From positions 1 to 27,155 of IMG/VR virus record IMGVR_UViG_3300025426_000104: DNA of 27,155 nt; one strand, 5' to 3'. Both the position numbers and the translations under genes were made by a program. Of this stretch, positions 539-17,668 are shown one piece after another. The first letter of the stretch is position 1. Every line of letters begins with the position of its first letter. Under the pieces are notes generated by a model that was not told the origin of the DNA, ran no database searches, and saw nothing but the letters and a program-made list of their open reading frames with translations. This stretch comes from a virus.

Positions 539-803
539 ACAGCAGAACGTAGAGTTGATGGAAAGATTAACAGCAGCAGTTGGAAAAATGATTGAACAGG
601 AACAGGACATTACAAACCTTCGGTTTGAAAATCTTTCGTTGCGAGAGTCTATTGAAACGGAACATAAAAGGTTGGTTGATGATGAACATTTAAACTCCGA
701 GTTAAAAAAGAGCCTTCGAGAAATGCAGGAATCAAATGAATTGTCTGCCAGAATAATACGTAAGTTGTTAAACGCAATGGATAAAATGGAAGGTGAGTTC
801 TAA
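525..803 (+). CDS. Small coiled-coil protein, unknown function
   Basis: This 92-residue protein is rich in Glu, Lys, Leu and Arg and is probably one long helix or coiled coil (heptad-like LMERL, LRFENLSLRESI, LKKSLREMQ). I chose ATG 525 because it follows an AGGGAGAG ribosome-binding site at 510-517 at normal spacing. A longer reading from 399 would overlap the exonuclease by 140 bases without an obvious Shine-Dalgarno. With this start the gene overlaps the exonuclease end by 14 bases and its stop overlaps the ERF start (TAATG). Lying between exonuclease and annealase, it may be an accessory of the recombination module, but that is position only. No family recognised. Confidence 0.72.
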   Translation: MASYKQQNVELMERLTAAVGKMIEQEQDITNLRFENLSLRESIETEHKRLVDDEHLNSELKKSLREMQESNELSARIIRKLLNAMDKMEGEF

Positions 804-1549
804 TGAGCGTATACCAAAAACTGATGGAAGCTCGCGTCAAACTTGCTGAAGCCAACTTGAAAAAGAGTGGGCATAACAAGTTTGCCGGGTACTACTACTA
901 TGAGCTGGGTGACTTCCTGCCAACGGCGATGAAGATTTTTTGCGACCTAAAGTTGTACGGCGGTGTTTCGTATGGCAGAGATGTAGCAACCCTGACCATC
1001 GTGGATACAGAGAAGCCAGAATCCACCGACCATATCTTTTACTACTGCCCGATGTCTACGGCTGAATTGAAAGGATGCCACCCTGTACAGAACCTCGGCG
1101 CGGTACAGACGTACATCCGCAGATACCTTTGGACAGCAGCACTTGAACTGGTCGAGCACGATGCTATAGACGCAAGTGAGCCAGCCGGTATTAAAAAAAG
1201 TGAGTTAGAGACGGTAGAAAAGAAGGTTGCTAAACCAATAGAGGCTCCCAAGAAAGAACCGTTGGGTCCGATTGCTGAAGCTAAAGACTTAACAAACGAA
1301 AAGCCGAAGGATGAAACCCCGCAAAAGCCTTGGACGATTACCTTGAAATCGGACACCGCTTTGTTTGTTCCTTCGTTTGTAGAGTCCGCTCAATTTACGT
1401 TGCAGTTTGCGAAGAGCGAAGAGGATGTAAAAGAGATCTTCCGTGTAAATAAGTTTATGTTTGACGAACTCAAGCGTCAGTCCGTAGAGCAATACGACGC
1501 GCTGATGGTTGCGTTTAAAACACGTAAGAATGATTTGATTAAGGAGTAA
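803..1549 (+). CDS. erf: ERF-family single-strand annealing protein
   Basis: This 248-residue protein has the hallmarks of the ERF recombinase family (P22 Erf type). Residues 23-40 read GHNKFAGYYYYELGDFLP, and residues about 97-123 contain LGAVQTYIRRYLWTAALELV followed by EHDAID, the conserved family end. ERF proteins form rings on single-stranded DNA and anneal complementary strands for phage recombination and genome circularisation. The core ends near residue 125. A Lys/Pro/Glu-rich linker follows (about 130-170), then a less conserved C-terminal tail of about 75 residues. The start ATG overlaps the previous stop (TAATG). A nuclease upstream and an SSB-like gene downstream support the call. 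The core motifs are visible, so confidence is high; the role of the tail is unknown. Confidence 0.92.
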   Translation: MSVYQKLMEARVKLAEANLKKSGHNKFAGYYYYELGDFLPTAMKIFCDLKLYGGVSYGRDVATLTIVDTEKPESTDHIFYYCPMSTAELKGCHPVQNLGAVQTYIRRYLWTAALELVEHDAIDASEPAGIKKSELETVEKKVAKPIEAPKKEPLGPIAEAKDLTNEKPKDETPQKPWTITLKSDTALFVPSFVESAQFTLQFAKSEEDVKEIFRVNKFMFDELKRQSVEQYDALMVAFKTRKNDLIKE

Positions 1550-3119: not shown

Positions 3120-3310
3120 AAAACAATATAGGTTGGTTCCTATTGGGCGGGACATTAGCTTTGCTTTGGTGGTCTGCCGGTTACAACTGGGTTCAATCTG
3201 CGCGATACGACAAGCTGATTCAAGAGCGCGAGTACATGAAAATAGACTACGACGCTTGCATACAGCGAGTGCAGGAGTTAACGTCAAAAGAGCGGGAGCC
3301 AAAGAAATGA
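3116..3310 (+). CDS. Small membrane protein with cytoplasmic or periplasmic coil
   Basis: A 64-residue protein starting at GTG 3116, overlapping the previous stop (GTGA), with GGGAGG upstream (3106-3111). Residues about 5-22 (IGWFLLGGTLALLWWSAG) form one transmembrane segment. The rest is charged and helical (YDKLIQEREYMKIDYDACIQ). The layout of one N-terminal anchor followed by a coil resembles inner-membrane spanins but is also common in small phage membrane proteins. It lies in the early operon and not in the lysis cassette, so a spanin role is only a possibility. Its end overlaps the HNH gene start by four bases. Confidence 0.65.
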   Translation: MKNNIGWFLLGGTLALLWWSAGYNWVQSARYDKLIQEREYMKIDYDACIQRVQELTSKEREPKK

Positions 3311-4149
3311 CTTATGGTCCTCCTGTTATAAAACAATGTGAGCATTGTAAAAAGGAATACAAATGCCCAAACAGCAGGGCGCATAAGTCTAGGTTTTGCA
3401 CCATAACCTGTCACAATAAGTCTGGTTTACTTCCGCGTATTGAATATACCTGCGTTAATTGTGATGATAAGTTTATGGCGAGACCAGATCATGGTGAAGA
3501 CCGTAAGTTTTGTAGTCGCAAATGTTTTTTAGATTATTCATTACGTCCTGAACCTAAAGAGTGTGAAAACTGTGGGGGTGTTTTTCTTGCAGGACGTTCT
3601 GCCACGGCAACTCGCGGTGATGGAAGAAGAATTTACTGCTCCAAAAAATGTTACACAGAAGGATCGCGCTCTTTTGAGGAACGCCCATGCGTTGTTTGTG
3701 GAAAACTTTACTATCCATTGGGAACTAAAAAAGACAAAAACCAAAAAACGTGTTCACTCAAATGCATGGCAGTGTTCTTTTCTGGGCCTAATGGTTCTAA
3801 CTGGCAAGGCGGCGAATACATATCTGAATCAACGAACCACAAGATGGTATTGATTGGAAGACGAAAGGGTTACGTAGGCAAATATACAGCGGAGCATCGT
3901 TTAGTCGTTGCCAAATATATTGGAAGGCTTTTGGAAAGAGATGAAGTTGTTTTACATATAAATAGTCAACCACTAGATAACAGACCATCTAATTTGTTTT
4001 TGTGCGAAACAAGAAGTGAATATGGTTATAGAAGGCATGGAAGTTTGCCTTGGCCTACAACAAGTAACTTAGATAAGTTTAAAGAAACAGAAAAAAAGCT
4101 GAAGGAAATAAAACATGACGCCAGAAGAAAGAACAAAAGCGCAGTTTGA
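3307..4149 (+). CDS. HNH endonuclease with four N-terminal zinc modules (possible free-standing homing endonuclease)
   Basis: A 280-residue protein from ATG 3307; the frame is open further up to 3133 but that part lies in the previous gene. Four CxxC...CxxxC zinc-binding modules are visible at residues 11/14-31/35, 49/52-69/73, 86/89-111/115 and 128/131-149/153. After a GPNGSNWQGG linker (160-169) comes an HNH region: EHRLVVAKYIGRLL (196-209), then VVLHINSQPLDNRPSNL (214-230). H217, N225 and N229 are in place, but the usual first His of the VHH motif is Leu216. HNH enzymes of this type cut double-stranded DNA and in phages often move as free-standing homing genes. The stretch looks AT-richer than its neighbours by eye. 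The C-terminal tail is strongly basic. Activity is not certain because of Leu216. Confidence 0.82.
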   Translation: MTYGPPVIKQCEHCKKEYKCPNSRAHKSRFCTITCHNKSGLLPRIEYTCVNCDDKFMARPDHGEDRKFCSRKCFLDYSLRPEPKECENCGGVFLAGRSATATRGDGRRIYCSKKCYTEGSRSFEERPCVVCGKLYYPLGTKKDKNQKTCSLKCMAVFFSGPNGSNWQGGEYISESTNHKMVLIGRRKGYVGKYTAEHRLVVAKYIGRLLERDEVVLHINSQPLDNRPSNLFLCETRSEYGYRRHGSLPWPTTSNLDKFKETEKKLKEIKHDARRKNKSAV

Positions 4150-4878: not shown

Positions 4879-5162
4879 AAAAACTATTCCTTCTCTTAAG
4901 CGTCGCTTTAATCGCAGGATGTTCAACCTCGCGTCCGGTAGAAGACAGCCCACGTTATCTCCCTGCTGTTAAACCTGAGCCCCTTATTGGCAAACTTAAA
5001 GGTTGGGATGGTGCTACCGCTATGAGCGATAACGAAGTCCTACAGGCATCTAAACAATGCATGTACGCGAAGCTGGTCCCAAACGTAGAGTACACTGCCG
5101 TTCGTTTAGATACCGGCGGCAAAACCCTCGTACCGATAGCCGTACACTGCGAGCATAACTGA
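4875..5162 (+). CDS. Putative lipoprotein
   Basis: A 95-residue protein with a clear lipoprotein signal: MKK, hydrophobic LFLLLSVALIAG, and lipobox LIAGC with Cys16. Signal peptidase II would cut before Cys16 and leave a mature, lipid-anchored protein of about 80 residues. The mature part has Pro-rich stretches (SPRYLPAVKPEP), then VLQASKQCMYAKLV, and a C-terminal beta-like segment ending in AVHCEHN. Two further cysteines could form a disulphide. Roles for early phage lipoproteins include superinfection exclusion and outer-membrane spanin; neither is shown. It is coupled to the previous gene by ATGA and to the next by TGATG. Confidence 0.8.
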   Translation: MKKLFLLLSVALIAGCSTSRPVEDSPRYLPAVKPEPLIGKLKGWDGATAMSDNEVLQASKQCMYAKLVPNVEYTAVRLDTGGKTLVPIAVHCEHN

Positions 5163-5461
5163 TGTACCGAAACAAGAAGCTGTTAGAAGTTGTACGCAAA
5201 GCACCGTGCCAACACTGCGGGGTCATAGATGGAACCGTAGTGGCGGCACACTCTAACCAACAGCGTGATGGTAAGGGCAAGTCGATTAAGGCAGCGGATT
5301 ACCGTATCGCTGCCCTATGCTATTGCTGTCACGCCGAGTTAGATCAAGGCTCCAAGATGAGCAGACAAGAGCGCGTAGAGATGTGGGAAGAAGCGCATCG
5401 CAAGACAATAGGATGGTTGTTCGAGAACCTTATTCTTGACGTGAACGAACCGCGTCATTGA
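5162..5461 (+). CDS. YbcO-like HNH-type nuclease (DUF1364 family)
   Basis: A 99-residue protein, close in length to E. coli DLP12 prophage YbcO (about 96). It has C16-x2-C19, then AHSNQQRDGKGKSIKAADYR (His30 at the start), then C53-x2-C56-H57 and ELDQGSKMSRQERVEMWEEA. This is the DUF1364 pattern: a small zinc-stabilised HNH-like fold. YbcO is described as a nuclease in the replication/recombination regions of lambdoid phages. Starting by TGATG overlap, it is the last plus-strand gene. Its last 32 bases overlap the end of the opposite-strand 1956-residue gene. Confidence 0.85.
   Translation: MYRNKKLLEVVRKAPCQHCGVIDGTVVAAHSNQQRDGKGKSIKAADYRIAALCYCCHAELDQGSKMSRQERVEMWEEAHRKTIGWLFENLILDVNEPRH
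5430..5461. other. Convergent overlap of early and late transcription units
   Basis: The stop of the plus-strand YbcO-like gene (5459-5461) and the stop of the minus-strand polyvalent gene (5430-5432) lie within each other's coding sequence, a 32-base tail-to-tail overlap. I see no GC-rich hairpin followed by a T-run on either strand within about 60 bases, so neither transcript has an obvious intrinsic terminator here. Confidence 0.85.
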
Positions 5462-8400
5462 ACTGTTTCATAATCCGTGTCTTGGTTTCCTCGATATTCT
5501 TGAGTCGATCAACATCGGGTTCTTCTCCTCTTAGTTCTGCCTGCTTCTGCAATTGCTGCTTCATTTTGTTCAGCTTCAGTATCTGATTGTGAACATTGTC
5601 CGCAGCTTTATACATGGCAGCTTCAGGGTTTTCCCGAACCACTTCCGCAGGATCTCCTGTACCGGGATTCTTGGCTCGACCTTCTATCTCTGCTTTGTAT
5701 CCAGCCATGCGCTCTGCATTCTGATAGAACCGATTCGCTATCGCTTGTTGAGACTCGGTATCCCCGATTAACTTACCGACGATTGGAACCCTATACAGGG
5801 GCTGCTCTTCTCCGGTCGTTGCGCTCTTAGCCGTCTCTACGGCTTTCATAGCCTCTCTGCTGACACCGCCGAAGTATTGACCCATCATGTAATCTAGGTC
5901 GTCACCTGTAGGGCTTAACGCGCCTTTTTGATACTCTGTGCCACCAGATGCTAGGTTCATAAACTCGGCTAGGTTCTTATTAATGAACGAAGCATTATCT
6001 CTGGAACGTAGATAGCCGGGTGTAGGACGTCCGGGTTGGTCTTTGCGTGAGATAGGACGACCAAACGCATCCTCGTTTGCATACTCAGACACAATCGGAC
6101 GTAGAGCTGTTGGAGTAAGTTCTAATGCCAATGGCCCGCCACCCAAAGGGTTAAATGCACTGAGCATTGAACTTGCAATGTCCATTGCCTTCTTCCCTGC
6201 TCCGGCGTTACTCCGCTGCAATCCAGCTTGTGCCAACGCATATTCAGTCAAGTTGCGACTAAAGTTTGGAATAATGTTTAAGCCGGGAGGCATAGGTATC
6301 TTTAGGTATGTGCCGTCACCCGTTGGAAGGATGAAGTTCTTTTCCTTCTCATATGCAGGGATATCTTCATCATCAAAACCAGCAGCGGCAAGCGCCATAG
6401 CTTGAGCCGTACCAAGCGCTAGGCCGCCTGCAACAATCTTGCGACCTGCTGGGCTATTTAATGTCTGAGCCAAACGATCTGTACTTTGTACGGCAGCATT
6501 AAAGAATGAGAATACGGATGAGAAGTATGGAGTTAACTGACCCTTCTGGTTAAAGTTAACCGTGATGTTGTTGGCAAGCTGTGCCGCCTTGTCAGGAGAC
6601 ATGCCGTTCGGAAATGCTTTGTTCCGCAATTCCAAGGCATTCTTAAACGCTGCTAAACGCACAGCGTTTTCCATACTGTCGTTGTAGTCTGATAGCCAGC
6701 CCATCACTGACTTGGTTGCTTTACGAACGTTGCTTGGGTTTAAGTCCCGCAACTCCTTAGCTAGGATGTCCACTTTCCCTTCGCTGTTTCTTAAACGGTC
6801 TGCAAACTCTAGCTTGCCACCAGACTTCTCAAACTGTTTGTAAAGGTCAGCCCATTCACCAGTTGTTGTTTCCCCGTTTCGTCTGGCACGTAACTCTGAA
6901 TAGATAGTTTTCAGAGCGGGCAAAGTATCAGCCGCAACCTTGGCTTTACTTTGAGCAAGCGGAGTAGATACTAAGTTAACAACACCGCCCACGGAGTCAC
7001 GCATAAAGTTCCATGCGCCAAACACAGGGTTGAATTGGGTATTGATGGAGGATAGATAGTTCGTAAACTTAGCAATGGGTCGCATGAACGGCGGGATCTG
7101 AACGGCATCCGCATTCTTAAGCGCACCCACCATTCTCATGGCTGTTTCATTGCCCGTGTTGAATATGATGTATCTATCGTTGCCATTTATACGAACAGGT
7201 AGCACGTTCGCAGCGCTACGGATGGCAGGATCCATGCGGTACTCAGCTAAACCAGTGCGCTCGTTGATTGTCCCTTTCTTTGGGGGGGCCATGATCCGAT
7301 CGGCAAGGTCAGGATCAAGACCCATCTTCTGTAGTTCTGCTTTCAACAGATGAGGATTTTTAACAACATCTGGATTCACGACCGTGGCAAAACCCGGCAT
7401 CGGATGCTGCAAGAGTTGCCCGTACAATGCACGACCGACCTTGATATCCTCTGCACGATTGATTGCCCGCTCACGCTGGAGCATCACGTTTTCAAGGATG
7501 TCACCAACCGTCTTAAGAGAGCCTACGGCCCTACGCGAAGTATTTCCAGATGATCCAATGCCGCCACCCGTTCCACCATGATGAACGAAGTTAAGTTCTT
7601 CATCTATACGCTGAAGTGGTACGTAATCACCATAAGTTTCGCGCCAGCTTGCTATTGTTGCAGGAGTCTCTTGACCGCTTGCTACAAGCATATCTTGAGT
7701 TTTTTCTATAATTTTACGAACGTCTTTAGCCAAACTTTCAAACTTGGCTTTCTGTTCGGGAGTCAGGCTATCAAGATACTTTTTAGCGTCATCCGTATGG
7801 ATGCCGGAACCAGAATCTTTTATAGCGGGATTTTTTAACTGAATCTCGCCGTTCTCATCTTCGTATTCGTTTGTCTTGTTGTTCTGGTTGTTACGCTCTT
7901 CTGCATGCTTGTTGTGCAGGTATTCATCAAGTTGATCTTGCGTAACACCCAAACGGTCCATCTTTTGAGCCAATGGGCGAAGTTCTTTTTCTCTGAACTC
8001 TTTCGACACATCGGACCTTCTGTTGGTCGAGATTGAATGCTGGAGCCATGCATTGAACTCGTCAGCCATCTTGCCACCGTTCTTGATGATGGCATCGTGC
8101 ATGTTCTTAAGATCAACATACTTGTTAACCATGTGATACATAAACTTGTTTAACCGCTCTGGGTTTATGTTTTGCGGTGTAACAGGCTTTTGTTCAGTTA
8201 CCGCCTCAGAGACTTCGTGTTCTTTTGGAGCGCCGGTTTCTTCACCAAGTTCTTGCCGACTCTTGGGTGTTTTTATCTTGACGCCGGGACGAGACTCGTC
8301 TGGCATAACATGAACTTTCCCGGTCAAGCGCTCACCAAGGTCCATGATTTTGCTTAATGCATCATCACTAGATTTTGTTAAGCCAAGCAACTTACGCACG

Positions 8401-11300
8401 GAAGATACAAACGAACTCCATGCTGTTTCTTCATTAGGAAGCTTAATCTTCTTAAGTATTTCTTGGACTGGGCGATCAACCATAGCCCACGTAATCAATT
8501 CTGTTGGATGAGAGAATATGTTTCCGCCAATACGCTTAAGTTCTTTTCCCTGCGGGATCTTCTTTATGTACTTAAACAAACTATCTAGTTCTTCAGCAGC
8601 TTGAATATGCTGAGGATTAGACTCACCGTAATCAGCATACCCTTTTGCCGCACGGTAATTCCGCTCAGTCGCCGAGTGAACTATTTCATGCGTAATCGTT
8701 GATAAATTGTTCCCGTTTGCGTTTGGGATAATCCGAATATCATGTCGTATTGTGTTATATATTCCGCGAGCCGACCTTCTTCTATTGTCAATCTTGATCT
8801 TTACATCCTTCACTTCAGGAAGGATGCGATCCAGTATTTCTTTGATATCAAGTGGAACAAAGTCACGGATACGTTTAACAACGTCGGCTACTGTCTTGTC
8901 TTTAGCAAGCTCACTTACGGATACCATGCTCTTGCGTGGATCAATTCGGTTGGTCCCTGCTTCAGGATCATCCATGTAAGTCAGATCAATGCCTTTTTTT
9001 CTAGCAGTTTCTATATGTTGATTAAGTGTTTCAGTTAACAGGTCAGGATTATTTTTTGCTTCCTTGATCTCTTGTTCCGTGCCAAACTCAAAGTCATGCA
9101 GCGGTCTTCCGTTTGCATCTTCCCGTCCTCCGGGAGCAGCTTTAGTCAGCTCGACAGGTTTAGCTACTGTTCCTCTAGCAAGATCTATAAGCTCAGGTAC
9201 GCTACGTTTAGGTCTTTCCCCAAACATATCCTCTGAACCGCTCATGTGTTCCTCATGAGCAAACTTTGCTAAGTTCGTTAGGAAGTCTGATGTTCTCTTA
9301 GGTGATCCCGTATGTTCTGCAAACGTCCTGAAAATGTTAGAAGCCAGTTCGCTATCCCCGATTTGCGGAAGTTTTACGCGATCCTTCAAGCTCATCTTGT
9401 TTCGCGTTGCGTTGATTGCCATCTCAGCAGCATCAGCTACGTGCGATTTGATTTCGTTATACGCGGTGTTATCTAACTGCATCATGTGCGGAGCAGCTTT
9501 AGCTAAGGCGTTTACAACGGTCTTAGCCTCTGGATCTACCGCAGAGTATGCAAGCTCAGTTAGCGCGTCGTTGTCGTATGCCTTATGGAAGATAGCCGCA
9601 TTCATACGGTCTATCGCCTTGGGCGTTACCGTGCCATCTTTGTTCAGCATCCCTGCCTGTTCAGACATTGGCATAGCATTGATAAATTTACGAACCGCAT
9701 CAGGGCTTACACCGTTTTCCCCAATATCCAGTTTAGACAAATCAATCCGGTTAGCATCATTCTTAGCCATCTCGATGGGACTAAGTTCTAACCCTAACGG
9801 AGTATTAGTAAGGTCACCCCAGTTTGGTCTGCTCAATACCTGATCTGGATGCGTCACGCGAACGAGCATGGGGTTGTCTAAGCTTGCTATCGCGTTTGGA
9901 TCTATTCCATGCAGGTTATCTGCGGACAGAGATGCGCGATAGGCATCTGCATTCCCACGTTGATGAGCAGCCTGTAAACCCGCAGCGCGACCATTTCCTG
10001 CCGCTACTTTGAGTCCGCTTGCATTTGGGTTGTTGTAGTCGGGTACAGGTGATCCGTCAGCGTAGTGCGAAGGGATAACGCTGTTTGCTTCAACAGCCGC
10101 ATAAGTAACAGGTACTTTAGATCCATCGGTAAGCGTAACGGTGTCTGTTCTTCCAACGTGCTCTGGGTTTATAGGTGCTCGTAAGTTTTGACCGTAAACA
10201 ATCGGAGCACCATCTGCCGCTGAACGTGAAACGCTAACCTGACCGTAATCAGGATTGGCAGCGATAGACTGCATCTGAGCAATAGACTGGTCAGATGTTC
10301 TGTCTCTGTTTTGGATTACAGCTGCTTCACCACCTACAGTTGGAGCTTCCGTTCCTAACGATGCAGTTTTAAATGGTTCTGGCGCATTTACTGTTGCGAC
10401 AGGTTCTGGCTCAACAGAAGTAGCGGTCGGTTCAACAGCAGGAGTTGGCTCAATCGGAGTCGGTGCTGTGACAGGAGCAACTTCCGGTGGTGGAGGCTCT
10501 TTTCCAGACGGAGCGTTTGGTTTTGTGAGTTCTGCAAACGCAGCTTCATTATCTTGATAAGGTGATGCGGAAACTTTATCCGTAGGCTCAGTCGGTTCTG
10601 CCGGAGTAACGGGAGAAACCTCTGGAGCAACTTTTGGTTCGGCCTTAACACCAGTAATGCGTTCACGCAATGCACGACCCGGAGCCCCGGCTGCACGTCC
10701 CAATCCTGTTTCTTTTGTTCCTGCTGCACCTAGAGCTGTAGATAGTAAAGCAGAGTAAGGATCAACCGTTCCTGTGGTTAGAAGTTGTTGACCAACATCT
10801 AATCCACCTGCAAATGTACCGCTAAGTGCAGATTGCCCCGCTATTTGTTTAGCGATGGCAGCCTTTGCCTCTGGTGCTACGTTCTTGCTAAACAAGCTTG
10901 CAATCCCTTCAACATCTGGTCGCATGGTAAGCAGATTAGGAATGATATCCCCTGCCATAGATGCATACGGATGTTGCTCTTGACCTGCCGTCCTCTCGGC
11001 TTCCCCTAAACCTATCGCTTTAGCCGTTTCAGGGAAGCTTTCTAGCGCTTTATTTTGTAGATATTGAGCGCCAATACCTGCACCTAGTAACGCACCGCCC
11101 GTTAGAAGTAAACCAGCCTCAGCAGGCAACGCAGCAACTGCGGATGCCCCGCCTACAATAGGTAAAACGTTTTCTGCCGCACGAGTTAAGAATGCTCGGC
11201 CTGAACTTACTTCAGGGTTTTCTGGCCTCAAGTCATTTGGAAGTCCTTCCGGACGAGGGTTCTCAGGCTTAAGATCATCCGGGAGGTCTTTGAGTGCCAT
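5430..11300 (-). CDS. Giant polyvalent protein: ParB/DdrB-like, zincin-like and LPD38-like regions; probable ejected virion protein
   Basis: This 1956-residue protein is the last gene of the late unit. Residues 6-29 hold two copies of a 14-residue motif (LPDDLKPENP and LPNDLRPENP). A hydrophobic Ala/Gly region follows (about 44-82), then a Pro/Glu/Thr-rich linker (about 215-310). Residues about 335-520 resemble the ParB/DdrB-like domain of polyvalent proteins, with VAAGNGRAAGLQAAHQRG near 430. A zincin-like region has HEIVH (871-875) and HPTELITWA with Glu934 as likely third ligand. The section from about 1227 (DYVPLQR) through FNPVFGAWNFMRD near 1425 resembles LPD38. A hydrophobic segment lies at about 1618-1638 and a helical tail at the end. 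Phage polyvalent proteins are thought to be packaged and injected with DNA. The start is ATG 11298-11300 with no strong Shine-Dalgarno; the upstream stop is 6 bases away. Domain names are by recognition, not search. Confidence 0.8.
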   Translation of the reverse strand: MALKDLPDDLKPENPRPEGLPNDLRPENPEVSSGRAFLTRAAENVLPIVGGASAVAALPAEAGLLLTGGALLGAGIGAQYLQNKALESFPETAKAIGLGEAERTAGQEQHPYASMAGDIIPNLLTMRPDVEGIASLFSKNVAPEAKAAIAKQIAGQSALSGTFAGGLDVGQQLLTTGTVDPYSALLSTALGAAGTKETGLGRAAGAPGRALRERITGVKAEPKVAPEVSPVTPAEPTEPTDKVSASPYQDNEAAFAELTKPNAPSGKEPPPPEVAPVTAPTPIEPTPAVEPTATSVEPEPVATVNAPEPFKTASLGTEAPTVGGEAAVIQNRDRTSDQSIAQMQSIAANPDYGQVSVSRSAADGAPIVYGQNLRAPINPEHVGRTDTVTLTDGSKVPVTYAAVEANSVIPSHYADGSPVPDYNNPNASGLKVAAGNGRAAGLQAAHQRGNADAYRASLSADNLHGIDPNAIASLDNPMLVRVTHPDQVLSRPNWGDLTNTPLGLELSPIEMAKNDANRIDLSKLDIGENGVSPDAVRKFINAMPMSEQAGMLNKDGTVTPKAIDRMNAAIFHKAYDNDALTELAYSAVDPEAKTVVNALAKAAPHMMQLDNTAYNEIKSHVADAAEMAINATRNKMSLKDRVKLPQIGDSELASNIFRTFAEHTGSPKRTSDFLTNLAKFAHEEHMSGSEDMFGERPKRSVPELIDLARGTVAKPVELTKAAPGGREDANGRPLHDFEFGTEQEIKEAKNNPDLLTETLNQHIETARKKGIDLTYMDDPEAGTNRIDPRKSMVSVSELAKDKTVADVVKRIRDFVPLDIKEILDRILPEVKDVKIKIDNRRRSARGIYNTIRHDIRIIPNANGNNLSTITHEIVHSATERNYRAAKGYADYGESNPQHIQAAEELDSLFKYIKKIPQGKELKRIGGNIFSHPTELITWAMVDRPVQEILKKIKLPNEETAWSSFVSSVRKLLGLTKSSDDALSKIMDLGERLTGKVHVMPDESRPGVKIKTPKSRQELGEETGAPKEHEVSEAVTEQKPVTPQNINPERLNKFMYHMVNKYVDLKNMHDAIIKNGGKMADEFNAWLQHSISTNRRSDVSKEFREKELRPLAQKMDRLGVTQDQLDEYLHNKHAEERNNQNNKTNEYEDENGEIQLKNPAIKDSGSGIHTDDAKKYLDSLTPEQKAKFESLAKDVRKIIEKTQDMLVASGQETPATIASWRETYGDYVPLQRIDEELNFVHHGGTGGGIGSSGNTSRRAVGSLKTVGDILENVMLQRERAINRAEDIKVGRALYGQLLQHPMPGFATVVNPDVVKNPHLLKAELQKMGLDPDLADRIMAPPKKGTINERTGLAEYRMDPAIRSAANVLPVRINGNDRYIIFNTGNETAMRMVGALKNADAVQIPPFMRPIAKFTNYLSSINTQFNPVFGAWNFMRDSVGGVVNLVSTPLAQSKAKVAADTLPALKTIYSELRARRNGETTTGEWADLYKQFEKSGGKLEFADRLRNSEGKVDILAKELRDLNPSNVRKATKSVMGWLSDYNDSMENAVRLAAFKNALELRNKAFPNGMSPDKAAQLANNITVNFNQKGQLTPYFSSVFSFFNAAVQSTDRLAQTLNSPAGRKIVAGGLALGTAQAMALAAAGFDDEDIPAYEKEKNFILPTGDGTYLKIPMPPGLNIIPNFSRNLTEYALAQAGLQRSNAGAGKKAMDIASSMLSAFNPLGGGPLALELTPTALRPIVSEYANEDAFGRPISRKDQPGRPTPGYLRSRDNASFINKNLAEFMNLASGGTEYQKGALSPTGDDLDYMMGQYFGGVSREAMKAVETAKSATTGEEQPLYRVPIVGKLIGDTESQQAIANRFYQNAERMAGYKAEIEGRAKNPGTGDPAEVVRENPEAAMYKAADNVHNQILKLNKMKQQLQKQAELRGEEPDVDRLKNIEETKTRIMKQFNDAVRSRQE

Positions 11301-11306
11301 AATTTT

Positions 11307-13733
11307 TTACTTGTATTCTTGTCCGGTTTGCGTGTTCCACCATGATTGAGTCTTGTCGCTCCACTGCGCTCCTTGAGGTACATTAGTTGGGCGTGGTGGC
11401 GTATAAGGCGTTGCAGGTTTATTTTCTGCTGCTGTATTTGCTGGAGCAGATGGGCCAAAAGTTCTTTCCCACCAAGATGGTGTTTTTGGGTTAACAGGAG
11501 GCTTCTCCAGCAATGGTCTGGGCTGATAAAGTTCTCCTGCGCCCTGACGGGTATGAATTGCTCTAGCTTCGTTCTCAACTGCTTGGTGTAGACGTTTGTA
11601 TTGTTCGTACACTTCAGGTTTACTTAGGTCAGCAGCCCCAGTTAAAGGATTATTCAAGAATGCTACCTCAGCATCAGAGGCTTTCTTCAGAGACTCGCTA
11701 TTCTTAAGTGCATTTGTTAAGTCTTCACGTTTCTTAATTTCTTGCTGTTGTTTAAGCGCTTCTTTTCTATCTGCGTTAGCGCCTCTTTCACGCTCCAGCG
11801 CCGCATTTGCTTCTATCATTTTCGCTTTAGCATTGCTTTCCTCTACAGCCAGCTTTCTTGGAGACTCAGTCGTTTTCAATGCAACTTCTTCTTTTGCAGC
11901 TAACGCCGTAATTTCTTTAGACTGAGAGTCTTTTATCTTTGCCTGAACTTCTTGTTGCGCCAGATAGCTTGTCTTAAAGTCTTTTAGTGCTTGCTTTTTC
12001 TGGTTATTCCACTCTATACCCATCTTCGCATCGTCGCGCGCGCGGGCATCTTGAGCCATAGCGTCTGCTTTCCAGAACTCCATAGCTGCTTTATCCTCTG
12101 CGTCTTGTATTTCACGTTGTTTATGTACAAGTTCTGTACGCGCTTTCATCCCGGCAGAGGCAGCGCCAGCAAAACCTAAAGCAGGGTTGGCTCCGGAATA
12201 TGCTGTTGCAAAAGCAATCAGCCTTTCCATTGCGTCTTGCTTATGATTCTCAGCTTGACGTGCTTCCATCGCGCGTTGTCTATCCTCTAATGCAGACAAT
12301 GGATTTTCTTTAACTCCAGCCTTCTTAAAATAATCTTTCATTTCCTGAAGGCTCTTTGGCAAATCATCAGGAACAGCATCTGGTTGAACTTCTCCAAACA
12401 TATCAACCAATTTCTTCGTTGCTGTTGCAGCTTGCGTCGCAGGCGATGCTTTCGCTTCACCGCTTTGAGCGCCCTCTGCTCCTTTTATTCCAGCGGCAGG
12501 AGCGGTAGCTGTAGATGTTCCTAAAGGAGTGAACCTTGGATTTTCCGCAGTTGCGTTGTCAGCAGTAACCTTTTTGATTGCAGCCAATGCTTGTGCATCT
12601 GTAATACCGCTAGGTCCACCGGGGGCTCCAGCTTGTCCGGCTAAGGTATCTAATGAACTGTATGGCAACGCAGGTGTTTCATCTGGCGCTTTAATTGCAG
12701 GACCGCTTGGCGTTCCCGGAAGACCTGCAATCCCAGCCTGTGTGTCTAAAGAACTGTAGTTAGTTGGGCCAGCCTGTTCCGGTGCTTCTACCGCAGGTCC
12801 ACTTGGTGTCCCCGGCAATCCTTGAATTCCGGCTAGAGTATCTAATGAACTGTAGTTCGTGGGTCCAGCAGTTTCCTCAGCAGTAGCTTCTTCTCCTGCT
12901 CCGCCTTGTGACCCTGCTGCGCTAGGAATTCCTGCTGTCTCTACAGGAGTACTATACCCAATGGTCGAAGGCGGGGCGTTCGGACTTATTACTGTCGGCC
13001 CACTAGGGCTTCCCGGTGCTCCCTGAACCCCTGCAACAGAACCGTTTAGTTGAAGGAGATCCGCTAACTTTTGATTAGCCTCATAAGCCTCACGCTCTCT
13101 TCCTGACATATAAGCCGTAGGATTCTCGCTTGCAGGAAAGTCTTCTACAGTTTCCTCAGCTTTACCGCCTTCATCAAAAGCAACAATTCCACCACCCGCA
13201 TAGTTGTCAGCATGGAACATATGATGCAAAGGCATAGAAGCCAATCCACCATGAGCCATAGGAACGGCTGGTGCTTGTGGTGCTTGCGGAACTCCCTGCG
13301 GCCCCTGAACCTGTTTCATTCTGGCATAAGCTTCTTCAGGAGATTGTTGTATGGCCCCGACAGGATTAACTTGTCCAGCAGGAGCCGCCACAGGATTAAC
13401 TTGTCCAGTAGGTGCGGCTACAGGATTGGTTCCTTGCTGTGGAGCAGTTGGATTTGTTGCAGCTTGCGGGGCAAGCGGATTTGCTCCTTGTTGAGCCGTC
13501 AAAGGATTAACTTGCCCTAGCGATCCTAGTCCTTGCTCAATTTGATTTTTAACTGTTGGTTGCTGTGCGGGGACTGGTTGCGCAAGTTGCTCAAGTTGTT
13601 TGCGACGATTTAATTCCCCAAGTGCCATATACGAAGGAACTTCTGGATTCGCACCATTGGCATACTTCATTAAGTCTTGATTAGTAACGATAGGGCTTTG
13701 CAGGCTTGCCTGTACTTGAACCAAATTTAACAT
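11307..13733 (-). CDS. Repeat-rich probable internal virion protein (808 residues)
   Basis: The N-terminus contains NPEVPSYMALGELNRRKQLE (about 29-48), a motif seen in many large phage virion proteins. Next comes a Pro/Gln/Ala-rich part with NPVAAP-type repeats (about 70-130), then AHGGLASMP (from residue 160) and AGGGIVAFDEGG. Residues about 235-380 hold tandem 32-residue units (YSSLDTxAGxxGxPGxPSGP). The C-terminal half is a long Ala/Lys/Glu-rich coil (about 500-700) ending in WWERTFGP and a WSDKTQSWWNTQTGQ motif. No enzyme domain is visible. It sits between the 344- and 1956-residue genes in the place of T7 gp15, so an ejection role is inferred. A GGGGGGAT site lies upstream of ATG 13733. 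Confidence 0.7.
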   Translation of the reverse strand: MLNLVQVQASLQSPIVTNQDLMKYANGANPEVPSYMALGELNRRKQLEQLAQPVPAQQPTVKNQIEQGLGSLGQVNPLTAQQGANPLAPQAATNPTAPQQGTNPVAAPTGQVNPVAAPAGQVNPVGAIQQSPEEAYARMKQVQGPQGVPQAPQAPAVPMAHGGLASMPLHHMFHADNYAGGGIVAFDEGGKAEETVEDFPASENPTAYMSGREREAYEANQKLADLLQLNGSVAGVQGAPGSPSGPTVISPNAPPSTIGYSTPVETAGIPSAAGSQGGAGEEATAEETAGPTNYSSLDTLAGIQGLPGTPSGPAVEAPEQAGPTNYSSLDTQAGIAGLPGTPSGPAIKAPDETPALPYSSLDTLAGQAGAPGGPSGITDAQALAAIKKVTADNATAENPRFTPLGTSTATAPAAGIKGAEGAQSGEAKASPATQAATATKKLVDMFGEVQPDAVPDDLPKSLQEMKDYFKKAGVKENPLSALEDRQRAMEARQAENHKQDAMERLIAFATAYSGANPALGFAGAASAGMKARTELVHKQREIQDAEDKAAMEFWKADAMAQDARARDDAKMGIEWNNQKKQALKDFKTSYLAQQEVQAKIKDSQSKEITALAAKEEVALKTTESPRKLAVEESNAKAKMIEANAALERERGANADRKEALKQQQEIKKREDLTNALKNSESLKKASDAEVAFLNNPLTGAADLSKPEVYEQYKRLHQAVENEARAIHTRQGAGELYQPRPLLEKPPVNPKTPSWWERTFGPSAPANTAAENKPATPYTPPRPTNVPQGAQWSDKTQSWWNTQTGQEYK
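12600..13045 (-). repeat. Tandem 32-codon repeats (YSSLDT...PGxPSGP)
   Basis: Within the 808-residue gene, three units begin with YSSLDT (near 12855, 12758 and 12663 on the minus strand), 96 bases apart. Each continues AGxxGxPGxPSGP. A fourth, diverged unit lies upstream near 13030 (VAGVQGAPGSPSGP). Conservation at the protein level is clear; the Gly-Pro-Ser content is collagen-like but the GXY register is not continuous. Confidence 0.8.
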
Positions 13734-13735
13734 GG

Positions 13736-14770
13736 TTATCCCCCCGTCCCAAAGAAACCTTTAAGTGAATCATAAGCAGTTTGCAATGCAGGTAAATCGT
13801 TTACCAGTGAAGCAACTGTTCCGCCTGCTCCGACCAAGTTTTGTGATGTTGATGGGGCTTGTCCGTAAATCGCAGAGGTACTTGAGGGTAAAGCCGCTAA
13901 TATTCCTGACTGCATCTTCAACATCTGTTGTGGATACTGTAGTTGTTGTAGGTACTGATTGTATGAAGCTGTATCCGCAGCTTGTGCCAAAGCTTGTTGT
14001 TCGCTTCCAGCTTTTTCTTGCGCCTGCACGTCTGCAAGTCCATATTGTGCTTGATTCGTAGCATTCTGACCAAGAGCTTGATTTGCTGTTGTTGCAGCCT
14101 GTAACCCTTGTAAACCTAACGATGATTGATATTGATTTGCTGTTTCTTGTGCTTGCTGAGTTTGTAAGTTGCGAGCTTGATCTGCGTTGAACTGGTTCAT
14201 TGCATTGTTGTACGCAGTGTTATAACCAGAACTGATCAAAGAATTAGCAGCAAGATTATTGTTTAGAGCATTCTGAGATTCTTCTATAGCTTGACGACCT
14301 CCACCAAAAGCTCCCGCCTGAGCCATTGTTGCGCCAAGCTGACTGTTTTGTTGTCCTAGTTGTTGATTTAATAGCTGAAGTTGTGGCTGCAAAGAGGCTT
14401 GCAAATACGGATTCATGTACTGCTGTGCAGCGTCTGAAGTAAAGTTTTGATTTGTAAACGTTGTTGGAGTAAACGTATTGCCAATGTTTTGAGCTTGTGT
14501 TGCTACGCTTCCAAGGTTATTACCAGCCGCCGCCATCCCGCTAGGCAGTGTTAAATTAGCCAGCCCTTGAAATGCTTGGTTTTGTAATTGAGAAGGTCCG
14601 GCAGCAAGCTCTCCGGTAAATTGTGGCATCGGAGCTGAACCAAGTGCCTGAGCTTGATTTACAACTTGATTTGCTAGAGGTTGAGCATATGGAGAAACCC
14701 CCGCTTGCGTATAGCTAGTAGGCGTTGCGTTTAAGTTTTGCGATGTCATGAAATCACTTAGTACAGACAT
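13736..14770 (-). CDS. Gln/Ala/Asn-rich virion protein, probable internal/ejection protein
   Basis: This 344-residue protein is very rich in Gln, Ala, Asn and Leu and almost free of Lys and Arg through its middle. After AGVSPYAQPLANQVVNQ (about 23-40) comes a region with QQYMNPYLQASLQPQLQLLN (about 115-135), GAFGGGRQAIEESQ, and long Gln-rich helices (about 190-290). The YMNPY motif followed by a Gln-rich helical part is common in a poorly named group of aquatic podovirus structural proteins. The gene position and size suggest the gp14-like member of an ejection-protein trio, but no homology to gp14 is claimed. Start ATG 14770 has GGAAAG upstream. It ends two bases before the 808-residue gene. 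Confidence 0.65.
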   Translation of the reverse strand: MSVLSDFMTSQNLNATPTSYTQAGVSPYAQPLANQVVNQAQALGSAPMPQFTGELAAGPSQLQNQAFQGLANLTLPSGMAAAGNNLGSVATQAQNIGNTFTPTTFTNQNFTSDAAQQYMNPYLQASLQPQLQLLNQQLGQQNSQLGATMAQAGAFGGGRQAIEESQNALNNNLAANSLISSGYNTAYNNAMNQFNADQARNLQTQQAQETANQYQSSLGLQGLQAATTANQALGQNATNQAQYGLADVQAQEKAGSEQQALAQAADTASYNQYLQQLQYPQQMLKMQSGILAALPSSTSAIYGQAPSTSQNLVGAGGTVASLVNDLPALQTAYDSLKGFFGTGG

Positions 14771-14779
14771 GATCTTTCC

Positions 14780-17668
14780 TTATGCTGGCATGTAGTTGTT
14801 GGCTTTGATCTGCTTACCCTGTTTAGGATTGCCAGTTCTAGCCTTCCTAACTCGTTCCATCATTTTGTATAACACTTTAGATCCTGCTTCTGTAGAGCCA
14901 TTGCCTAAATGAGATACCACATCCGCTGGAATCACAAACTCCCCATCGGCTAAACGAGCTGGTTGCTTATGCCCTATCGTAGCTGGAATATTATCAGACA
15001 TTCCGTCACCCGGCCCCTTTAAAAGACGTCCACCGTCTGAGTAAGAACCAAGGTTATAAATTTCTCCGCCATGAGCATAAGAGTTGTCTTCGGCTACGTT
15101 TGTTTGTGTCGAAGGAACGTTATGCGTCATTCCACGAGCGTCTACGGAATAAGCTTGGCTTACATCGGTATCGCCGGGCAAATACATTCCTTGTCGCGGA
15201 TCAGGTGTCCGGTTTGCTCCAACGTAACGACCGGCTTCTTGAAGCATATAAGCAGGTAATCCTAACAGAGACTCTTGATGCGGCTGACCCGGAACATACT
15301 GAGCATTTGGGCCTAAATTATTAACGGGTAGTTCTTCTCTTGGAGCGAACTCAATACTTGGCCTCGTGAAGAAATCCGTGATGTCATTAAAAGTTGAATT
15401 ACCGCTTACTCCGGTTCGATCACCTCGCTTCGGTTGTGAGACTAAAGATCCATGCGTTTGACCGCTGAATGCAGGAATCCCGTGATCATAATATGTTGTT
15501 GGTGTCACAGATTGATTGGACACCATTGTAGGCATGCCGCCATTTGAAAACTTTTTAGGTATAGACGCAAGGCCGCCGTGAGCGAACCCAGAAAAAGTTG
15601 GATTTAAATATTGATGTCCCATAGCGGATCCTGTTGGGTGGGTGTACGCACTATAATTCCAGTTTAAGACTGGATTAGAAGCAGGTGATGATGTTGATGT
15701 TCCCGTTACATTCGGGCTTGATGAGCTACTCCCGCCGCTTACAAGACCAACAAGACCTGCTGACGCAGCTAAAGCTTTTGCAATCCCAGAAAGGTTGTTT
15801 CCCGCATTGCCTGCAATAGCCGTTCCTTGTGTTGGCGTTAACGCATTTTGTATCGTTGAACTACTTGTAACATTTCCTGTCGTTGGGTCAACGTTCGTAG
15901 TTGTTTGTGAATTATCTACGTAGTTAGATGTTGTCCCAAGAGGAACTTGTGACATTCCGCTTGTATCTTGAAATATAGGAGTTCCAGTAGATCCGTTCTG
16001 TGCTGTGTTAATACCAGTTGGTAAGTTTACTGGCGCTGTTGCTGCTGTTACCGGGCTTGATGTGACATCTGCACCGCTTACTCCTCCGGCAGACGGAGTT
16101 ACCATTTGCGTTTGATTGTCACCCGTTCCAAAGTTTGTTGTGATTCCAGCCTGAGATCCATCCGTAGTAAACGTGGGTGTACTCGTAGATCCATTCTGCG
16201 CCATGTTCACGTTATCGGCAGGATTTGGATCACCACCCGTTGAACCAATCGTTGGCGAAGTAACCCCCAATGAACTTCCTAATCCAACTAAACCAGACAA
16301 AACTCCAGCAGGATTGTTATCCTGTGCTGCTTTCACTGTGTTTACAGCTTGGTTTGCTGTTTGCACATCTTGAACTACTGGATTAGATGCTACATCTTGA
16401 GCCGCACCTATAATTTGAGACCCAAGAGATGGAGCTACTGCTGCTGCCGTTCCAGCCGCTGAATATGCCGCAGGAATTGCTCCGCTAGATGTGATAACAG
16501 ATGATCCGGAAGGAGCAAACGTGGCTATATCTGCTGCACCCTCAGCCGCTGTAAACCCAGACAACGCATCTCCTAGTGCCGCACCTATTCCGGGTAAAGC
16601 CAATCCAGCCAATACTGGCAATGCCATCTGTGCAATACCACTCAACATTCCACCGCCAGCACCAGACTGATAGGTCATCATCTTAGATGGATCTATGGGT
16701 GCTACTGTGCCTGTCGCTGGATCTGCGCGGATATAGGTATTAATTGATCCTTCAGATTGTGGGTTAGCAAATGAAAATTGATATACGCCATTTTGTTGAG
16801 AAGGGGATACGTTATTTGCTACTACGTTACCTGTTGCTGAGTCTATAAGGTTGTAACCACTGGCTCCGTAGTTAGCTCCAAATGGATTGTTGTTTTGAGT
16901 AGGAGCCTTAACCATAACCAATGTGCCGGCTTGAGAAGCTCGCATCAACTGGTTATAGGTATCGTTCCCAGCAACGTCTACATTGGAACCATACATCTGG
17001 ACACTAGGATCATTTCCACGTCCGGGTATACCCATTTGTGCATATGGGATTGCATTTGATGGAGCAGGAGCAGGAGCAGGAGCAGGGGCAGGAGCTGGAG
17101 CTGGAGCTGAATTAGGGTCTACTAAAGCTGCACGGTTAGGATCGCTTTTTATAATGTTCTCTAAGCTTCCCTGAATAAGATCTGCTTGCTTTCCTTGATT
17201 AATATAGTCTTTAACTACCCCTGTGTTTAGGTACGGATTTGCATTTAGAAAATTAACTATATCTGAATCAGAATATCCAGCCTGTCGTGCAGCAACGTAA
17301 TCCGCTGCGCCAAATCCAGCTCCTGCACCATATATACGAGAAATTTCGGAAAGGCTTTCTCCTTGCGTAACAGGATTAGCCAATAAAGGTAAACGATTTG
17401 CGTCACTTGCCCCTATGTTTGGTGTGCCTGCTGCAATTAAATCTGCCTGCTTTCCTTGCGTAATAAGGTCTTTTGCTGCTCCCGTGTTTAGATATGGATT
17501 TGCATTTAGAAAATTAACTATATCTGAGTCTGTATATCCTGCTTGCAATGCTGCAATATAATCTGCGCCACCAAATCCAGCCCCAGCCCCATAGATACGC
17601 GAGATGTCATACAGACTTTGGCCCTGTTTTACCGGGATTGATAATGATGGTAAGCCTGTGTTTGCCAT
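14780..17668 (-). CDS. Large virion protein with LysM-like tandem repeats and conserved C-terminal GPGDGMSD module
   Basis: A 962-residue protein. Residues 9-95 and 96-182 are a tandem repeat of 87 residues. Each begins P-V-x-Q-G-x-S-L-x-x-I-S-R-I-Y-G, like the first half of a LysM motif, and then has ADYxAAxQAGYxDSDIVNFL and NANPYLNTG. A Pro-Ala linker (about 188-206) follows, then a Gly/Ser/Thr/Asn-rich low-complexity middle with hydrophobic Ala/Gly stretches (about 345-450). AHGG motifs start at residues 696 and 865. The last 85 residues contain LLKGPGDGMSDNIPATIG and LADGEFVIPADVVSHLGNGS, a module I recognise from many phage structural proteins. The role is likely tail or ejection; binding of peptidoglycan by the repeats is inference. 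It starts three bases after the preceding stop. Confidence 0.7.
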   Translation of the reverse strand: MANTGLPSLSIPVKQGQSLYDISRIYGAGAGFGGADYIAALQAGYTDSDIVNFLNANPYLNTGAAKDLITQGKQADLIAAGTPNIGASDANRLPLLANPVTQGESLSEISRIYGAGAGFGAADYVAARQAGYSDSDIVNFLNANPYLNTGVVKDYINQGKQADLIQGSLENIIKSDPNRAALVDPNSAPAPAPAPAPAPAPAPSNAIPYAQMGIPGRGNDPSVQMYGSNVDVAGNDTYNQLMRASQAGTLVMVKAPTQNNNPFGANYGASGYNLIDSATGNVVANNVSPSQQNGVYQFSFANPQSEGSINTYIRADPATGTVAPIDPSKMMTYQSGAGGGMLSGIAQMALPVLAGLALPGIGAALGDALSGFTAAEGAADIATFAPSGSSVITSSGAIPAAYSAAGTAAAVAPSLGSQIIGAAQDVASNPVVQDVQTANQAVNTVKAAQDNNPAGVLSGLVGLGSSLGVTSPTIGSTGGDPNPADNVNMAQNGSTSTPTFTTDGSQAGITTNFGTGDNQTQMVTPSAGGVSGADVTSSPVTAATAPVNLPTGINTAQNGSTGTPIFQDTSGMSQVPLGTTSNYVDNSQTTTNVDPTTGNVTSSSTIQNALTPTQGTAIAGNAGNNLSGIAKALAASAGLVGLVSGGSSSSSPNVTGTSTSSPASNPVLNWNYSAYTHPTGSAMGHQYLNPTFSGFAHGGLASIPKKFSNGGMPTMVSNQSVTPTTYYDHGIPAFSGQTHGSLVSQPKRGDRTGVSGNSTFNDITDFFTRPSIEFAPREELPVNNLGPNAQYVPGQPHQESLLGLPAYMLQEAGRYVGANRTPDPRQGMYLPGDTDVSQAYSVDARGMTHNVPSTQTNVAEDNSYAHGGEIYNLGSYSDGGRLLKGPGDGMSDNIPATIGHKQPARLADGEFVIPADVVSHLGNGSTEAGSKVLYKMMERVRKARTGNPKQGKQIKANNYMPA
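17061..17109. repeat. Hexanucleotide repeat encoding a Pro-Ala linker
   Basis: About eight imperfect copies of GGAGCA/GGAGCT on the plus strand, read on the minus strand as alternating Ala and Pro codons in the 962-residue protein. As the unit is six bases, gain or loss of copies changes linker length without a frameshift. Confidence 0.9.
17123..17644 (-). repeat. Tandem 87-codon duplication (LysM-like units)
   Basis: Copy 1 is at about 17384-17644 and copy 2 at about 17123-17383 on the minus strand. They stay alike at the DNA level: for example both carry the same run around 17490-17520 and 17230-17260 that encodes NFLNANPYLNTG. The near identity suggests a fairly recent duplication or ongoing gene conversion. 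Confidence 0.88.

Follow-up and report, generated by a model that had tools for sequence, protein, structure and literature searches.

Described relatives of the polyvalent protein P0001

Polyvalent proteins form a category of phage proteins (Iyer et al. 2017) in which at least two domains of disparate activity are joined in one chain and which is found near late virion genes. The window analyzed here, the whole 27,155-nucleotide stretch of IMG/VR virus record IMGVR_UViG_3300025426_000104, carries the gene of such a protein, P0001, an open reading frame (ORF) with an ATG start that encodes 1956 amino acids (aa). P0001 is probably packaged in the virion of a short-tailed phage and co-injected, probably in the place of the largest ejection protein, with a C-terminal unit that would deliver it and a DdrB-like front that would be the payload.

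5430–11300, minus strand: polyvalent protein gene (P0001), 1956 codons

The protein gp69 of the Burkholderia phage JC1, one of the Bcep22-like podoviruses, was found in CsCl-purified virions by mass spectrometry (PMC9144972). This DarB-like protein is encoded by the last gene of the virion module, as P0001 is in its operon, and it shares with P0001 the LPD38-containing C-terminal unit (E 1e-85), about 120 residues ahead of which an HExxH motif is located. In contrast to P0001, gp69 has 4515 aa and contains helicase, methylase, and lytic-transglycosylase-like domains, while a DdrB-like ParB domain is not reported for it. The DarB-like methylase-helicase dyad was absent from P0001 in the Pfam search.

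In PTXU04, a podovirus by electron microscopy, the putative polyvalent protein gp25 (2198 aa) was classed as Fit in a CRISPRi-ART screen and confirmed by plaque assay, with E. coli BL21 as the final assay strain (PMC11879866). Its gene lies in the late operon as well, it is required for infection, and it has the fold of the C-terminal unit (TM-score 0.64). Unlike P0001, it shows only about 16% identity by fold search, lacks HExxH, and has a different front part; the C-terminal unit of PTXU04 was not found by the sequence profile of this unit.

The head protein DdrB of P1 resembles P0001 in its ParB domain and the following helical region, which are homologous, and in an HExxH located further towards the C-terminus. 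It differs in its length of 995 aa, its origin from a long-tailed phage, and its lack of the C-terminal unit, for which the profile reported no match in DdrB. The HExxH region of DdrB did not match the zincin profile built in this analysis. The phiKMV-type protein (9sfn_G; QDWS gp42, 1337 aa) is the largest of a small-medium-large ejection trio and has a homologous zincin-like domain with about 26% identity over that domain, while neither ParB nor the LPD38 unit was found in it. The N4 virion RNA polymerase (vRNAP) also holds a zincin-like domain in a giant injected virion protein, and its C-terminal region is needed for encapsidation (PMC5512222). Its payload is an RNA polymerase, however, and no such C-terminal unit was found.

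LPD38 polyvalent proteins in short-tailed phages are already known from JC1 and the Bcep22 group, PTXU04, and short-tailed Stx phages. The interpretation in the sequence-only reading is thus correct in type for the most part but describes nothing new. The architecture, the three regions, the repeat, and the position that it had described were upheld, and delivery with the DNA and neutralisation of host defences are predictions for this phage. The fixed terminal unit of about 900 residues, the zincin homology to a solved protein of phiKMV size, and the leader/tail pairing go beyond the published record, as far as the surveyed literature shows.

Domain architecture of P0001

9852–10316, minus strand: DdrB-like ParB domain (PF18763), residues 329–483, with P1 DdrB homology across residues 350–644
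8301–8753, minus strand: zincin-like domain, residues 850–1000, with HEIVH at 871–875 and the conserved E934

The ParB/DdrB-like region was identified by Pfam as ddrB-ParB at residues 329–483 with E 9.4e-18 and 64.9 bits, far above the cut-off of 27.6. Residues 350–644 matched P1 DdrB by tblastn (E 9e-15, 28% identity), and the arginine R438 of the ParB-type GNGR motif was invariant in six relatives. In the AlphaFold model of residues 325–1030, the ParB part matched the ParB structure 6sdk with Z 4.6 and 2.7 Å over 82 residues, which is weak when taken alone. DNase or nucleotide-dependent activity of DdrB-like ParB domains is a prediction (PMC5512222).

The claim of a zincin-like HExxH region was likewise borne out. 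HEIVH occupies residues 871–875, where about 0.04 HExxH motifs would be expected by chance in the P0001 sequence, and the HExxH helix with H871, E872, and H875 is followed by a helix with the glutamate E934, which was invariant in 8 out of 8 aligned sequences. Pfam, which returned ParB and LPD38, gave no zincin match for residues 779–1012 even at E 10, and the homology was found only via relatives and PDB sequences. Matches were obtained to 9sfn_G, the solved 1337-aa internal virion protein (single-sequence phmmer, E 2e-6), to its counterpart in the phiKMV-type phage QDWS (E 8e-7), to a homolog of greater size from Limnohabitans phage YIMV22061 (E 2e-14), and to N4-type virion RNA polymerases (E 3e-6). 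As the zincin profile already contains the QDWS sequence, its E of 5e-52 to 9sfn_G arises largely by construction and the single-sequence E of 2e-6 is the fair value. The zincin part of the same AlphaFold model matched the N4 vRNAP 9pnt with Z 9.5 and 3.0 Å over 109 residues. Zinc binding and peptidase activity are features predicted for this domain from its class.

In the closest full-length relative, L006, a single in-frame TAA (11990–11992) lies between ParB and zincin and is either an artefact or a true nonsense codon. A natural split into a ParB gene and a zincin/C-terminal unit gene was rejected for L006, as the locus is a single reading frame with this one stop.

The constant C-terminal unit

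5433–8201, minus strand: constant C-terminal unit, residues 1034–1956
5778–6368, minus strand: LPD38 (PF18857), residues 1645–1841, within the C-terminal unit
6381–6437, minus strand: conserved hydrophobic helix, residues 1622–1640, just ahead of LPD38

LPD38 was found by Pfam at residues 1645–1841 with E 5.7e-37 and 128.1 bits against a cut-off of 27. It is therefore present as proposed but reaches further towards the C-terminus than the span 1220–1700 where it had been predicted, and both spans fall inside one conserved C-terminal unit. These last ~900 residues are the only part that most relatives share with P0001. The match stops 0–9 residues ahead of the stop codon in 104 ORFs whose 3' end is intact; most of them come from viral contigs, near-duplicates are included, and a separate count covered 72 non-redundant ORFs. 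An independent prophage set comprised 71 ORFs on genome contigs that are bacterial or, in a few cases, labelled as archaeal, and in 64 of these the match ends at most 50 residues from the stop. Proteins with this unit range from 950 to more than 4200 residues, and their N-terminal parts vary, carrying ART-PolyVal, ddrB-ParB, SNF2-type helicase, N6 and C5 methylase, GNAT, HATPase, SLT, RadC, and LPD1 domains.

The AlphaFold model of the unit reached a predicted local distance difference test (pLDDT) score of 83.1 and a predicted template modeling (pTM) score of 0.79. Foldseek gave no match to the PDB (best E 0.58) and 78 matches to viral models at E up to 0.001, and no relative was found among PDB sequences. 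Weak ferritin matches (E 0.02 or worse) were discarded as helix-composition matches, and the structural matches from VIA-align were generic helical bundles with Z below 6.

An HExxH motif lies 100–230 residues before the C-terminal unit in 42 out of 75 viral-contig ORFs; the frequency of the motif in the remaining parts of these proteins predicts about 1.9. For the prophage ORFs the count is 8 out of 57, against about 2.7 expected, and a zincin at this junction as a general rule was rejected on these counts.

The constancy of this unit bears on the view that P0001 is a pure anti-restriction protein that is packaged in the head, as the P1 Dar proteins are, and whose injection serves solely to protect DNA, with the C-terminal unit as a passive packaging tag that has no part in ejection. 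This view is backed by the DdrB homology, by the DarB-like helicase and methylase domains of related proteins, and by the DarB-like annotation of JC1 gp69, and we regard it as unlikely. A unit that stays constant while payloads vary is unexpected of a dispensable tag, and P1 DdrB reaches the head without it. E. coli BL21 lacks the EcoB restriction system. The requirement for PTXU04 gp25 in this strain would thus point to a role in delivery or ejection and not in anti-restriction alone, and a purely anti-defence role appears to fit it poorly.

The unit also occurs in L095 (MetMV), a virus assigned to Methanosarcina, and in L152 and L159, contigs binned to archaeal metagenome-assembled genomes (Nitrosotalea and Methanoperedens). 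MetMV and L152 form a fully supported group. The host of MetMV is a predicted one (PMC7164591), and the archaeal occurrences reflect either archaeal viruses or mis-binning.

N-terminal leader and its pairing with the preceding gene

11214–11285, minus strand: N-terminal leader, two copies of a 14-residue repeat, residues 6–29
11073–11168, minus strand: Ala/Gly-rich hydrophobic stretch, residues 45–76
11307–13733, minus strand: 808-aa gene (medium ejection-type), directly upstream; its last 25 codons (11310–11384) are the tail in the pairing with the leader

The N-terminal repeat noted from the sequence consists of LPDDLKPENP and LPNDLRPENP, 14 residues apart, and none of 100 shuffles scored as well. 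Repeat scores of at least 34 occurred in 17 out of 50 N-termini of the family; for internal windows the count was 1 of 150, and for the N-termini of other ORFs it was 7 of 180. The motif differs from lineage to lineage, and these loci contained no further copy; as a tag common to other genes it was absent from the rest of the window and the linked contigs. The following Ala/Gly-rich stretch is possibly a membrane-active segment.

The leader is an exchangeable cassette. L026 and L030 are 93% identical across 3676 aligned residues, yet their leaders are unrelated (9 of 37 residues identical), and the exchanged tract of about 390 base pairs (bp) spans the leader and the end of the preceding gene. 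Across the family, with near-duplicates removed, the type of the leader goes with that of the final ~25 residues of the protein encoded just upstream, with a partial r of 0.47, a value reached by none of 1000 permutations; neighbouring stretches gave 0.15–0.18. On the tree of the C-terminal unit, seven of the eight leader types are dispersed, the number of changes equalling the number of members.

This match may reflect a docking interface, for which that of T7 gp15/gp16 serves as comparison (PMC8954989), or plain linkage. Adjacency of the DNA without any protein contact has an even chance of being the explanation, given that leader and tail are contiguous and that a single tract covers both in L026 and L030. 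Against linkage alone stand the sharp drop of the correlation on both sides, from 0.47 to 0.16 and 0.18, and the scattered leader types, which retain their tail type.

The same N-terminal Ala/Gly-rich region was seen in L068 (against P0001 residues 45–305, E 6.7e-24). The ~195 residues that precede it there (1–195) may correspond to the SLT domain of one set member. The front of P0001 may therefore differ from that of L068 by the loss or gain of a lytic domain.

Position in the late operon and genome context

13736–14770, minus strand: 344-aa gene, match to the DNA ejection protein family phrog_4287 (E 1.7e-7)
14780–17668, minus strand: 962-aa late gene, member of the conserved upstream cassette

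The P0001 gene is the last in a run of closely spaced minus-strand late genes, and its 3' end overlaps a convergent plus-strand ORF (5162–5461) by 32 bp, tail to tail. A 1956-residue polyvalent protein as terminal gene of the late operon was thus confirmed in ORF, domains, and position, the chain joining ParB, zincin, and LPD38 near late virion genes. Upstream, genes of 962, 344, and 808 aa precede the 1956-aa gene, separated by only a few bases each. About 30 other contigs have homologs of the 962- and 344-aa genes upstream of a gene with the C-terminal unit, and ten have a homolog of the 808-aa gene there, mostly 4–18 bp away; the cassette was not detectable in the prophage set by phmmer.

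The genes of 344, 808, and 1956 aa form a small-medium-large set with P0001 last and largest, which is the order of the T7/phiKMV ejection genes (PMC8954989). The place of the largest T7 ejection protein, which had been proposed for P0001, is supported by the small and medium ejection-type genes ahead of it and by the zincin homology to the large internal virion protein of phiKMV type. Similarity to gp16-type proteins is confined to the zincin region, where it is to the phiKMV-type protein, and the rest was unmatched. Pfam returned neither a transglycosylase nor any lysozyme-like domain in P0001, as the sequence-only reading had stated for the latter, and a transglycosylase domain is not universal in the gp16-type family (PMC8954989).

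Late-operon position alone is no proof of packaging, and P0001 might be a late protein active in the infected cell, for example in assembly or DNA handling. That it is not a virion protein is nevertheless very improbable, as JC1 gp69 with the same C-terminal unit is virion-associated and the zincin homologs are virion proteins.

Contigs identical over the shared DNA extend the window, which is a fragment. On one overlapping contig of the same virus lie genes for TerL, a portal of 811 aa, and an HK97-type capsid protein; a second contig adds more late genes, of which two encode SU10-type adaptor domains. Among the relatives of the portal are those of the Pelagibacter phages HTVC023P and HTVC027P. 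A unit of ~55 residues occurs twice at the N-terminus of the 962-aa protein, with a weak LysM match (E 0.022) that falls below the cut-off, and similar AHGGLAS...GG motifs occur in both the 962-aa and the 808-aa protein. The convergent early region encodes an ERF-type single-strand annealing protein (803–1549, plus strand) and an HNH endonuclease (3133–4149, plus strand). In L092, from the same virus, a direct repeat of about 860 bp (8034–8867 and 9438–10268, 73% identical) sits inside an 897-codon glycine-rich tail-fibre-like gene. Searches with NCBIfam and PADLOC gave no matches.

Proposed function and implications

Packaging and co-injection of P0001 as an ejection-type polyvalent protein is favoured for several reasons. 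ParB, LPD38, and zincin are supported by profile and homology, the zincin homologs sit in virion proteins of phiKMV type and N4 vRNAP type, and the DdrB match is to a head protein. The C-terminal unit runs to the stop in 104 ORFs with varying front parts, and the upstream cassette is conserved and includes an ejection-family gene. Finally, JC1 gp69 carries the unit and occurs in purified virions, and PTXU04 gp25, which has it by fold, is required for BL21 infection.

Several points weigh against this reading. The arrangement of a zincin before the C-terminal unit is common in closer relatives but not general, and PTXU04 has a very divergent unit (about 16% identity) and a different front part. 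As no relative of the unit has been solved, its ejection role rests on position, conservation, and one fitness result. The short tail is inferred from gene content, and packaging of P0001 in this phage is a prediction.

In the favoured mechanism, the C-terminal ~900 residues would be the delivery and ejection module, and the zincin-like domain would either act as a peptidase that processes the chain between payload and delivery module or be a structural element common to ejected proteins. Soon after entry, the DdrB-like ParB payload would act on DNA, probably to counter restriction, and the leader would probably dock on the C-terminal tail of the preceding ejection-type protein.

More widely, and tentatively, LPD38 proteins could be a plug-in injection platform, with an obligatory C-terminal ejection unit of a fold unmatched in solved structures, interchangeable payloads, and a swappable N-terminal leader that has to match the C-terminal tail of the upstream ejection protein. 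Leader and tail would then be a docking pair specific to a lineage and passed between phages as a single cassette. If the C-terminal unit is an obligatory injection module and the front part its payload, delivery and not anti-defence alone would account for the fitness result for PTXU04 gp25. Polyvalent proteins would then be a sortable set of payloads on one common carrier, and this carrier would be a candidate vehicle for phage-mediated protein delivery. The leader/tail pairing bears on how the largest ejection protein attaches to its neighbour.

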